A DNA stretch of 64,000 nt. Source: Desulfurococcales archaeon. Its GTDB lineage: Archaea > Thermoproteota > Thermoprotei_A > Sulfolobales > Desulfurococcaceae. Below are positions 25,111 through 29,200 of this stretch, in pieces. The stretch spans positions 1 to 64,000 of the forward strand of contig WAPN01000024.1 in NCBI GenBank assembly GCA_015520735.1, given 5' to 3'. Numbering within the stretch: the first letter of the stretch is position 1; the number at the start of each line of letters is the position of its first letter. Both the position numbers and the translations under genes were made by a program. Under the pieces are notes generated by a model. It had not been told where the DNA came from. It did no database searches and saw nothing but the letters and a program-made list of their open reading frames with translations.

Positions 25111-26169
25111 TTGCGTCCGGAGACAAGCGTAGGTATAATTGGCTGGGGATCATATATTCCTCGTTGGCGCTTACCATTATCAGAGATCGCAAAACTATGG
25201 GGATTCGCCCCAGAAACACCACGAGGCCTAAACGTGGTTGAAAAAGCTGTAGCAGGGAGAGATGAAGACGCTGTAACCATGGGCTGGGAAGCAGCTCGCA
25301 ATGCCCTCCTAAGAGCAGGCATAGATCCGAAGGAGATAGGAGCTGTATGGTTTGGAACAGAATCCAAGCCATACGCAGTAAAACCCTCAGCCACAATTAT
25401 TGCTGAAGCCCTAGGAATAACACCAGATACCATGGCTACAGACCTTGAATTCGCCTGTAGAGCAGGGAGCGAGGCATTGAGAATAAGCATAGGAGCCGTC
25501 GCGTCTGGCCTAGTTAAATATGCTCTCGTTATTGGTAGCGATACAGCCCAAGCCAATCCAGGCGATATACTCGAATTCACAGCCTCATCAGCAGCTACAG
25601 CCCTCATAACGGGTCCTGCGAGAGAAGCAGCGGCAGTTTTCGAGGCAAGTTACACCTATGTCACTGATACCCCGGACTTCTGGCGCAGAGCGCATCAGCC
25701 CTACCCGTTGCACGGTGAGGGATTCACCGGCGAACCAGCATACTTCCACCATATAGTAAGCGCCGTTAAAGGCCTCTTAGAGCAGACAGGGCTCAAAGTC
25801 GATGATTTCGACTACGCAGTCTTTCACCAACCAAACGGTAAATACCCATTAGCCGTAGCAAAGAGGCTGGGATTCCCCAAAGAGAAGGTACTGCCAGGCC
25901 TAGTCACACCATACATTGGTAATAGTTACAACTCATCGGCACTAATAGGCCTATCGAGAGTCCTAGACATAGCGAAGCCTGGACAGAGAATATTGTTAGC
26001 ACCATTCGGAAGCGGAGCAGGTAGTGATGCATACAGCATCGTAGTAACCGATAAAATCATTGAGAAACAGGACAAGGCACCGAGAGTTGATGATTACCTT
26101 AATAGAAAATATTTGATCGATTACGCAACTTATGCAAAATTCAGAGGAATAATCACACGTATAAGGTGA
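25111..26169 (+). CDS. Hydroxymethylglutaryl-CoA synthase
   Basis: Condenses acetyl-CoA with acetoacetyl-CoA to HMG-CoA in the mevalonate route to archaeal lipids. It is a thiolase-fold enzyme with nucleophile Cys116 in [11 protein letters not shown], and the conserved His of FHQPNGKYP. Its 352 residues match the archaeal family. The start is the TTG at 25111, after GGGTGA. The DUF35 gene follows six bases later. In many archaea this enzyme forms a complex with acetoacetyl-CoA thiolase bridged by the DUF35 protein; no thiolase gene lies in this cluster. Confidence 0.95.
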
Positions 26170-26175
26170 AAGCCC

Positions 26176-26604
26176 ATGAGGTTCTCAATCCCAAGGTACT
26201 GGAGGGAAAGACACAGCCACTACAGACTATACGCGAAGAAATGCTCTAAGTGCGGCCGAGTAAACTATCCGCCATCAAATATCTGCAGATACTGCGGCTC
26301 AACAGAACTCGAAGACTACTATCTTGACCGTGAGAAAGCCAAGATAATCTCCTGGACAATAATCTATCCAGCCCCAGAGGGCTTCGAAGAGCAGAGACCA
26401 AGGATCATAGCTTTACTAGAAACCCTAGAGACAAAAACCCGCATCATAGCGCCACTCACAGATATACTCCCGGAGGAGATAAAGGAAGGACTAATAGTAG
26501 AACCTGTCCTTAGAAGGATAAAAGAAGACAGAGAAGCCGGACTAATACACTATGCAATAGCTTATAGGCCGGTGATAGGATCAATTGGGACAAATAAGCA
26601 ATGA
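26176..26604 (+). CDS. DUF35 zinc-ribbon/OB-fold protein, partner of HMG-CoA synthase
   Basis: The N-terminal zinc ribbon has CSKCG near residue 23 and CRYCG near 38 (CX2C pairs). The OB-fold follows and carries the typical ending (IAYRPV). In archaea such a protein holds thiolase and HMG-CoA synthase together so that acetoacetyl-CoA passes directly between sites. Length is 142 residues. Its last 20 bases overlap the start of the HMG-CoA reductase-like gene, which makes that protein the likely partner in this operon. Confidence 0.9.
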   Translation: MRFSIPRYWRERHSHYRLYAKKCSKCGRVNYPPSNICRYCGSTELEDYYLDREKAKIISWTIIYPAPEGFEEQRPRIIALLETLETKTRIIAPLTDILPEEIKEGLIVEPVLRRIKEDREAGLIHYAIAYRPVIGSIGTNKQ

Positions 26605-27664
26605 AGATATCAAGAAAATATTCGAGGAAATAGGAGAATCCGATGAGACACTAAGAGAACTAGAGAAGAAACTCGACAATGAAAACCTAGCCGCACTGGT
26701 AAGGAGAAAGTTTTTTGAGAAAAGACTCGGAATATCACTTTCCGCGACAGGCTCTTCTATACTGGATTTCGTCGATACAGAGGGAAGTATATCTTACAGG
26801 CCTATTGGTGCGATACAAGTACCGGTAACAATAATTGGTCCCATTGATATTGAGGGAGAGATAGTACATGGCCCAAAATACATCCCCTTATCATCAATAT
26901 ATCCTGCACTCATGGAAACAATGGATCTAGGAGTATCCATTAGCCACAACACAAAAATAGTTGTAAAAACCGAAAAGTGCTGGATACGCCTATTCAACAT
27001 ATGTAGGCAAGAGAAATGCTCACAGATAGAATCAGTGATCAGGGCTAAGAATAAGAAACTTCACATTCTCTGCTATGGAAGAGAATCAGGAGGACTTGTA
27101 GAAACAATACTCATCGGTGAAGCTGCTCCTTGCCAAATAATCAAATCAATGATCACCAATGGAGAGATTGGTGAGCTGGTAAAAATGATTGGGCCAACAA
27201 AGATCCCAATACTTGCCCCATATATCACACTGGACTATAAACTATCGATCTTCATCCCGAGACTTACTCTCTCTTCCGCGGGTATAGGGCAATCAGAAAT
27301 AGTGAAAACATATAATGCTCTAGAAAATATGAAGGGAATAGACAATTCAATAATACCGATAACCCTTGGCGTCCTAACATCCTTTTACCTATCGATAGGG
27401 ATCAAGCCAGAATATGCGCTGAGAAGCGAGATCAGGAAATACTACCTCATAAGTGGTTTCCGCGGACTAAGACTTGGCCTGGATATACGCATAGCCCTAC
27501 CCTACGCTGTATCGAAATCAGAGCAAACCATAATAAATAGAGAGCTATACAGCATCATAGACGGTGGAAGAATTAATCCTTTAATCGTAGGAGAACTAGC
27601 ATCTTCTCTAGCGCTCATATCCTATATCGGAGAACTAGCTATGATCGCCAGAGGCGCTCCTTAA
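26585..27664 (+). CDS. HMG-CoA reductase homologue without catalytic motifs (probable pseudoenzyme)
   Basis: The N-terminal 110 residues align well with class I archaeal HMG-CoA reductase: AALVRRKFFEKRLG, then PIGAIQVPVTIIGPI and KYIPL. The catalytic Glu of the TTEGALVAS motif is replaced by Tyr106 (SSIYPALMET). The cofactor motif GDAMGMNM appears as SSAGIGQSEI. The aspartate of GQD is a lysine (SIGIKPEY). The C-terminus stops at GELAMIARGAP, before the catalytic His tail. The frame is open and well kept over 359 residues, so it is not a recent wreck. A scaffold, regulator or new activity is possible. The start is the TTG at 26585 after GGTGAT. Its last 30 bases overlap a convergent gene. Confidence 0.82.
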   Translation: MGQISNEDIKKIFEEIGESDETLRELEKKLDNENLAALVRRKFFEKRLGISLSATGSSILDFVDTEGSISYRPIGAIQVPVTIIGPIDIEGEIVHGPKYIPLSSIYPALMETMDLGVSISHNTKIVVKTEKCWIRLFNICRQEKCSQIESVIRAKNKKLHILCYGRESGGLVETILIGEAAPCQIIKSMITNGEIGELVKMIGPTKIPILAPYITLDYKLSIFIPRLTLSSAGIGQSEIVKTYNALENMKGIDNSIIPITLGVLTSFYLSIGIKPEYALRSEIRKYYLISGFRGLRLGLDIRIALPYAVSKSEQTIINRELYSIIDGGRINPLIVGELASSLALISYIGELAMIARGAP

Positions 27665-29200
27665 CAGCGATACCAACTGTTCATACTCATCAACCACAAT
27701 CTTATCGCATAGTTTATCAATAACTATTCTTGACCATGGAAGCTCTTCGCCCGGCTCATAACCATTGAATACGTAATTAATATTATAGTCTGTTATCTTC
27801 AGCGCCCTCCTCCACCCAGACAGGCCGCCACCAAGCTTGGCGGTCTGTAGTAAGGTCTCAGAAATCTTTTTTCCCGCCAATGCAATTGCAGCTTGCATCA
27901 CAGCCCATCTCACATCATAGTCTCTGAAATCAACATGTTTTCGCAGTCTATTTTTCAGTGATTTTATTAAGCGCTTGAGCTTAACAGGATCAAGCATGCC
28001 TATCCATTGAAACGGTGTCCTTGGCTTAGGGATGAGAGGATTTACACTAACAACTATTTTTCTACCCTTCCTTTTCGCCTTACTATTTAATTTTTCAATA
28101 TATTTTATTTCATCAAGATCTATATTTTCGAGCCCTTTAACTCCTACTATCATGTATATCTTTAGATCGAATCCTTTATTGAGTATTGATTCAATATCAC
28201 CAACGAATTCTCTTCCATAGTATTTCCCGAAAACATATTTCTTTGTAGGAAGAAACGATTCGGGTGCAATCGTGATAGTTTTCTGACCGAGCATACTTAT
28301 TAGTTCCAGAGAATCTTCATCAAGATGATCGATCCTCATGCTTGGAAGTACAGCACCACCATTGTTTTCCACCAGATACTCCAACAATTCCTTCTCGTAG
28401 AGATTGGCTAGGAAACATAATGAATAAATAATAACTCTATTCACATTATTCATGCGTAATCCATGTTTAACAAGATTTTTCATAACATGAAAACTACGCA
28501 TACGATACGGCTTGAATAGCCGGCCTTCCATGCAGAACCTGCACCAGTATTTGCAGCCTCTGCTTGTTTCGAGGAGGAAGCCACGGCCGTAGACGGGTTC
28601 TATTTCAGTATTTTGGATTTGTTTAACTGGATAGAACGCTTTGTCTAGATCACTGACGTAGGATTTTCTGGCATCCTCCTTAATGTCTGGAACGTAGACG
28701 TCGTTATAAGAAGCTATCTTCTCTAGGTATTCCCTCTTATTCTTGGTTTCTAGCCAATCCTTGACGAGACGCGGGATAGTGGTTTCAATTTCACCTATTA
28801 TGAATGCGTCAATGAAATCAGAGTAAGGTATAGGATTGGAAATCACTACCGGGCCACCAGCAATTATCACTTGTTTTCTCCTCTTTCTATATGGTTCTAT
28901 ACCTGCAGATAGAAGAGCTCTAAGAACATCTATTATCGAGAGTTCATAGTGGAGGCTTACGATGATCAACTCGAAGCTCCTAAGGGGGGCTCCTGTTTCT
29001 ATGCTTCTAGGAGGGGGTTCTTCTCCTTGGAACTTCTTTATATGGAAGCGCTCCAAATATGCCTCATCCACGCTGTTTACTATATAGTATATCATATGTG
29101 TTGGGAGACTGGATAGCATAGCCTCATACGTAGACGGGAATAGATAGGCTATTCTGGTCATACCAGCCCTAAATTTTTTAAGCACAAGATTGAATTCCAT
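27635..29200 (-). CDS. Radical SAM protein with B12-binding-like N-terminus
   Basis: The CX3CX2C motif is in SRGCKYWCRFCMEG near residue 217. Residues 1-150 have a Rossmann-like layout (IVSLHYELSIIDVLRALL, IIAGGPVVISNPIPYSDF) typical of the cobalamin-binding domain of COG1032-type proteins. The barrel continues (ITIAPES, YMIVGVKG). Such proteins carry out methylthiolation or other radical chemistry; the substrate is unknown. Length is 521 residues. ATG follows GGGGCGGA. Its end overlaps the HMGR-like gene by 30 bases, tail to tail. Confidence 0.85.
   Translation of the reverse strand: MEFNLVLKKFRAGMTRIAYLFPSTYEAMLSSLPTHMIYYIVNSVDEAYLERFHIKKFQGEEPPPRSIETGAPLRSFELIIVSLHYELSIIDVLRALLSAGIEPYRKRRKQVIIAGGPVVISNPIPYSDFIDAFIIGEIETTIPRLVKDWLETKNKREYLEKIASYNDVYVPDIKEDARKSYVSDLDKAFYPVKQIQNTEIEPVYGRGFLLETSRGCKYWCRFCMEGRLFKPYRMRSFHVMKNLVKHGLRMNNVNRVIIYSLCFLANLYEKELLEYLVENNGGAVLPSMRIDHLDEDSLELISMLGQKTITIAPESFLPTKKYVFGKYYGREFVGDIESILNKGFDLKIYMIVGVKGLENIDLDEIKYIEKLNSKAKRKGRKIVVSVNPLIPKPRTPFQWIGMLDPVKLKRLIKSLKNRLRKHVDFRDYDVRWAVMQAAIALAGKKISETLLQTAKLGGGLSGWRRALKITDYNINYVFNGYEPGEELPWSRIVIDKLCDKIVVDEYEQLVSLLRSASGDHS

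Follow-up and report, generated by a model that had tools for sequence, protein, structure and literature searches.

A degenerate class I HMG-CoA reductase, apparently maintained by selection, in the HMG-CoA synthase operon of a Desulfurococcales archaeon

A protein derived from class I HMG-CoA reductase (HMGR) and stripped of its catalytic motifs is encoded directly behind HMG-CoA synthase (HMGCS) and a DUF35 protein in the window analysed here, a 64,000-nucleotide stretch of contig WAPN01000024.1 from a Desulfurococcales archaeon. The same genome carries an intact class II HMGR, the degenerate gene evolves under purifying selection, and both its operon and its translation signal are conserved among relatives. 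The best explanation, to which we give roughly an even chance, is that the class II enzyme displaced the class I enzyme and that the relic was kept as a non-catalytic partner of the HMGCS complex. HMGR catalyses the step that commits the pathway to isoprenoids and archaeal membrane lipids. These heat-loving archaea would make mevalonate with a second HMGR of another class and keep the broken original under selection, which suggests a structural or regulatory job.

A reductase-derived protein without a reductase active site

The pseudo-HMGR frame, which an earlier sequence-only reading of this DNA had called long and clean, runs from a TTG start through 359 codons with zero internal stops, and the overlap with the DUF35 gene that the same reading took for coupling measures 20 nt (26585-26604; Table 1). 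As a candidate partner of HMGCS and DUF35 it shows both a conserved operon position and translational coupling. At its 3' end it overlaps the convergent radical SAM gene by 30 nt (27635-27664), an arrangement repeated in relatives of the same genus. The gene for acetoacetyl-CoA thiolase lies outside this operon, its nearest copy in the window's genome being at G000:C24:86075.

Table 1. Features of the operon and of the pseudo-HMGR gene, in positions of the window
Feature	Position	Strand	Basis
Archaeal-type HMG-CoA synthase (HMGCS) of 352 aa, which opens the operon	25111..26169	+	NCBIfam TIGR00748, 510 bits, above cut-off
DUF35 protein (Zn ribbon and OB fold, scaffold), 142 aa	26176..26604	+	Pfam zf-ChsH2, OB_ChsH2_C
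Shine-Dalgarno site GGTGAT within the 3' end of the DUF35 gene, 8 nt 5' of the TTG start	26571..26576	+	Sequence
Pseudo-HMG-CoA reductase, 359 aa, derived from class I HMGR, without catalytic residues	26585..27664	+	Profiles, alignments, dN/dS
Conserved N-terminal part (helical N-domain and first L-domain strands; ...GSSILDF...IGAIQVP...YIPL), the most HMGR-like region	26585..26890	+	Identity to intact class I: 42%, against 16% for the remainder
SIYP where intact HMGR has TTEG; Tyr106 stands for the catalytic Glu and is invariant across 12 orthologues	26894..26905	+	Alignment
Collapsed cofactor (S) domain; Cys 132, 145, 163 and 183 invariant across 12 orthologues	26945..27199	+	Alignment
G-I-K where intact HMGR has G-Q-D; Lys274 stands for the catalytic Asp	27398..27406	+	Alignment
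L-domain helices at the C-terminus; unlike in intact HMGR, no catalytic-His flap comes after them	27518..27661	+	Degenerate-HMGR intermediates
B12-type radical SAM gene, convergent, downstream syntenic marker, outside the system	27635..29200	-	NCBIfam profile, synteny

Motif columns were mapped against 36 intact class I HMGRs, all of which have E, D, K, D and H there. This alignment bears out the losses listed by the sequence-only reading: the Glu of TTEG is Tyr, the Asp of GQD is Lys, the NADPH motif GDAMGMNM is absent, and the C-terminal His tail is missing, the flap His column being a gap. No catalytic Lys (DKKPA) is recognisable in the window protein; its column falls in the collapsed, poorly alignable region and varies among orthologues. 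The protein is about 60 residues shorter than class I HMGR. With HMGR homology over its length and the catalytic residues lost, its sequence marks it as a pseudoenzyme by kind. Could it still be a functional reductase whose active site goes unrecognised? It derives from HMGR and sits in the correct operon; however, the four catalytic residues, GDAMGMNM and the flap are all missing and an intact class II HMGR is present in the genome, so that this reading is hardly credible.

Profile searches place the window protein inside the HMGR family and bear out the N-terminal similarity to archaeal HMGR that had been noted before, although only the first third of the protein is readily matched. TIGR00533 (HMGR, NADPH) covers residues 11-120 only (E=4e-12, 45.8 bits vs a cut-off of 441.8), the PDB match 6hr7 (HMG-CoA reductase) spans residues 30-120 only, and the Pfam search gave no match, PF00368 scoring 19.8 vs a cut-off of 27. 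By hhalign the N-terminal part aligns with intact class I HMGR over 112 columns at 46% identity, and the C-terminal half aligns with it directly only weakly (p=0.014, score 25.5 vs a shuffled maximum of 21.8). The gap is bridged by three intermediates, G091 (407 aa) and G090 (398 aa) of family f6 and G122 (354 aa) of family f3, which show losses of catalytic residues and can still be aligned with HMGR along their full length (44%, 33% and 28% identity, respectively). Scored against these degenerate forms, the window family's C-terminal half reaches 40.3 vs a shuffled maximum of 24.3 (p=7e-5), and the whole family aligns with the intermediate profile over 340 columns. Because the intermediates strengthened p from 0.014 to 7e-5, the C-terminal half is accepted as HMGR-derived too, and sequence comparison thus traces the whole window protein to class I HMGR. 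An alignment of class II HMGRs gave no profile match to it (hhalign p=0.12).

The two f6 intermediates are near full-length class I proteins (G091, L225 6410-7633; G090, L224 1655-2851) in which TTEG has become TTRK or TTRR and GDAMGMNM is lost, in genomes that have a class II HMGR; in G091 the catalytic Glu is replaced by Arg and GQD is retained. They are an early stage of the same decay process.

Class II HMGR and the fate of the class I locus

An intact class II HMGR is encoded on another contig of the window's genome (G000:C21:16973-18112; TIGR00532, 465 bits, above cut-off), and its sequence keeps the class II catalytic motifs at what we take to be their positions in the Pseudomonas mevalonii enzyme. 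The sequence-only reading had asked for an intact hmgA elsewhere in the genome: an intact HMGR does exist, though of the other class. The idea that this genome has no other HMGR is ruled out by the same gene.

The association recurs across the order. A dead class I protein was found in 27 of 214 genomes (family f1, 13 full-length and 5 short; f6, 6; f3, 3), so relics of the same kind occur in several families, and 25 of the 27 have a class II HMGR above cut-off. In the two exceptions, the fragmented or incomplete assemblies G027 and G033, neither class of HMGR was found in intact form. Among the genomes with intact class I HMGR (about 105 of the 214), about 8 also have class II. Outside the order, no short or dead class I gene was evident among 398 genomes of the phylum, judged by frame length alone. 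Displacement of class I by class II HMGR, a cause that the sequence-only reading overlooked, is the best reading of this pattern. At four f6 loci (L191, L192, L193 and L194) the class II gene is convergent to, and directly adjoins, the class I remnant, a layout as though the newcomer had inserted beside the gene it replaced.

Gene order in family f1 is conserved as HMGCS-DUF35-X-radical SAM (reverse)-aminotransferase, and the slot X holds successive stages of loss. In G007, G008 and G011 of sister genera the occupant is an intact class I HMGR. A full-length pseudo-HMGR of 359-369 aa fills the slot in five genera, two complete genomes among them, and a remnant of 253-274 aa does so in two genera; in others it holds nothing. 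By position the pseudo-HMGR is therefore orthologous to the intact class I HMGR that sister genera carry, and in the HMGCS tree all full-length pseudo carriers form one clade adjoining the intact carriers. Several class II-bearing genera (g6, g8, g9, g13 and the Ignisphaera-like g18) have no relic left, so in some backgrounds the relic is dispensable.

Several loci show other rearrangements. In two species of one genus (G046, L079 7968-9228; G184, L196 7055-8315) class I HMGR is present as two ORFs, a 108-aa N-terminal domain that overlaps DUF35 and a remainder of 300-315 aa. In G014 (L115 4983-6458) HMGCS and DUF35 share a single 491-aa open frame and the relic is lost, whereas sister genomes have the two genes separate and a short relic present. 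Where G017 (L116) and G025 (L119) have lost the relic, the space between DUF35 and the radical SAM gene holds two small reverse-strand ORFs, which by eye resemble a HEPN/MNT toxin-antitoxin pair. In family f1 as well, G010 (L113 5953-8626) carries a divergent HMGCS-thiolase-DUF35 set whose HMGCS is 57% identical to that of the window, apparently a replaced operon.

Did the relic arise once or several times? Its arrangement is HMGCS-DUF35-relic in f1, HMGCS-thiolase-DUF35-relic in f6 and HMGCS-relic in f3, and each equals that of the intact HMGR loci of its own family. For the f6 carriers G096 and G106-G108, the class II HMGR genes cluster with those of f2 and f9, apart from f1. A tree of the short N-terminal region, with long branches, gives a single origin of all relics a p-AU of 0.26; because this tree cannot reject a single origin, independent origins are argued instead from family-specific gene order, the HMGCS tree and the separate class II clades. 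Transfer of the relic between families is possible.

What selection keeps and what it may be kept for

In close pairs within genera the pseudo-HMGR has a dN/dS of 0.04-0.28, far from the value of 1 that relaxed selection would give, compared with 0.02-0.07 for HMGCS; for the short-form relic the ratio is 0.14 (all by Nei-Gojobori). In neutral simulation at the observed distances the number of stops averaged 6.7 to 16.4, with 0 of 300 runs stop-free at any distance, whereas the real genes have zero stops or frameshifts in 12 orthologues of five genera. Orthologues are 42-47% identical across genera, and about 90 of 374 columns are invariant among the 12, including the lineage-specific SIYP, KPEY and four Cys. 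A GGTG Shine-Dalgarno site lies inside the DUF35 gene, 8-9 nt 5' of the TTG start, in 17 of 17 pseudo genes of family f1, although part of this conservation may stem from DUF35 codons. Because the dN/dS is low, the orthologues are open in five genera and the Shine-Dalgarno site is conserved, it is well supported at the sequence level that the gene is maintained by selection and is no pseudogene, in agreement with the maintained pseudoenzyme of the mevalonate operon proposed earlier. The graded series from intact to absent, the several losses and the shrinking length would also fit a slowly dying, functionless gene, a displacement relic awaiting deletion; that reading is disfavoured by the same selection data, by the identity across genera and by the conserved ribosome-binding site, and we consider it improbable.

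What the relics keep is also informative. Intact class I HMGRs are 59% identical to one another in the N-part and 67% in the remainder. In the relics this pattern is inverted: N-part and remainder are 42 and 16% identical to intact HMGR in full-length f1 forms, 31 and 14% in short f1 forms, 33 and 14% in f6, 48 and 22% in G122 and 35 and 23% in G135. Fully decayed forms have lost the cofactor domain and the flap and kept the N-domain, the IGAxQxP strand and L-domain elements, a core that we take to be the dimer-forming region of class I HMGR. A structure prediction for the window protein from five sequences was poor (mean pLDDT 35.5) and the model was set aside; that the relic keeps its fold and dimer surface is therefore predicted from the sequence.

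In full-length f1 forms the Arg of the NRG motif, presumably a CoA-contact residue in class I HMGR, is Leu or Ser. Of the roles offered at the outset, which were that the pseudo-HMGR may scaffold, regulate or channel HMG-CoA, channelling or binding of HMG-CoA becomes less likely with the NRG Arg and the cofactor domain gone. As a regulator, the dead reductase would modulate flux, either by responding to a pathway metabolite such as HMG-CoA, CoA or mevalonate or by joining HMGCS or class II HMGR in mixed assemblies. This would suit the near-constant co-occurrence with class II HMGR and the relic's stay in the operon that encodes the step before, and regulation is a frequent role of pseudoenzymes. 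Displacement by itself accounts for the co-occurrence, however; the Glu, Asp and NRG Arg of the class I substrate pocket are lost in f1, and many class II HMGRs operate in genomes without a relic, all of which leaves regulation an unlikely, if serious, alternative.

Much the same weight goes to a new enzyme or ligand-binding protein, in which the full-length f1 forms would build a site on their own invariant residues (four Cys, CW-R-F, Y-N-E, ID-S, KPEY, FR), possibly with a metal. The roughly 90 positions invariant in five genera include many polar or aromatic ones not found in intact HMGR, and the four invariant Cys lie within the former cofactor domain. These motifs are missing from the short relics found in sister genera and in other families, which keep the N-part all the same; Cys pairs in hyperthermophiles can be mere disulphides, and Pfam and NCBIfam searches found no match to a known-family motif.

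Under the preferred reading, displacement followed by retention in the HMGCS complex, the original HMGCS-DUF35-HMGR operon would have carried a class I HMGR until a class II HMGR, acquired and encoded elsewhere in the genome, assumed catalysis. Relieved of that task, the class I protein could have shed its cofactor-binding domain, four catalytic residues and C-terminal flap, with selection preserving the N-terminal and L-domain core. Probably translated together with DUF35 from the ribosome-binding site within the DUF35 gene, the pseudo-HMGR may dimerise and would most likely serve as a non-catalytic subunit that docks to HMGCS, with or without DUF35 or thiolase, and stabilises, assembles or tunes the complex. 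In Methanothermococcus, thiolase and HMGCS are held together by DUF35, whose role as a scaffold is established (PMC6996347, PMC12329534). A role specific to DUF35 fails to cover all cases because the f3 relic adjoins HMGCS without DUF35; HMGCS is the neighbour common to all relic arrangements (f1, f6 and f3).

On the same reading class I HMGR itself would also dock to the HMGCS assembly, and this docking or assembly role alone would have survived displacement. That class I HMGR has such a second, non-catalytic role, solely kept after class II takeover and independently so in at least three families, is a tentative proposal that falls somewhat short of even chances; it would make the relics an undescribed pseudo-HMGR family and imply an archaeal HMGCS-HMGR metabolon. 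A dead HMGR kept repeatedly beside HMGCS, with decayed forms that are without the cofactor domain, amounts to a natural experiment: its retention suggests that class I HMGR does more than reduction, probably in the synthase complex, and points to the part responsible. The metabolon question becomes directly testable with a small soluble protein. For annotation there is a warning here: in these genomes a protein can have an HMGR-like N-terminus without being a reductase.

Relation to known systems

In the literature searched, mostly without subscription papers, no earlier description of an archaeal pseudo-HMGR was found, nor any prior HMGR case of a pseudoenzyme that arises as a distantly related enzyme class repeatedly takes over its catalytic role. 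The closest known protein is class I archaeal HMGR (TIGR00533, PF00368, PDB 6hr7), with which the window protein shares descent, the N-terminal domain, the order of L-domain elements and the operon place behind HMGCS and DUF35; unlike it, the window protein is without the catalytic Glu, Lys, Asp and His, GDAMGMNM and the flap, has a collapsed cofactor domain and scores far below the family cut-offs. The class II HMGR of the same genome (TIGR00532) carries out the reaction of the pseudo-HMGR's ancestor, but belongs to the other class, retains its catalytic motifs and has no profile match to the pseudo-HMGR.

The archaeal acetoacetyl-CoA thiolase/HMGCS/DUF35 complex contains the direct operon partners of the pseudo-HMGR, HMGCS and DUF35. 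As described in PMC6996347 and PMC12329534, both of which cite Vogeli et al. 2018, that complex has no HMGR or HMGR-like subunit, whereas the operon of the window is without a thiolase gene and has an HMGR-like one. With pseudoenzymes that stand beside an active counterpart, as a general class, the window protein shares the loss of catalytic residues under purifying selection; here, in contrast, catalysis went to a distantly related xenologue and not to a paralogue, and the same decay is seen in three families.
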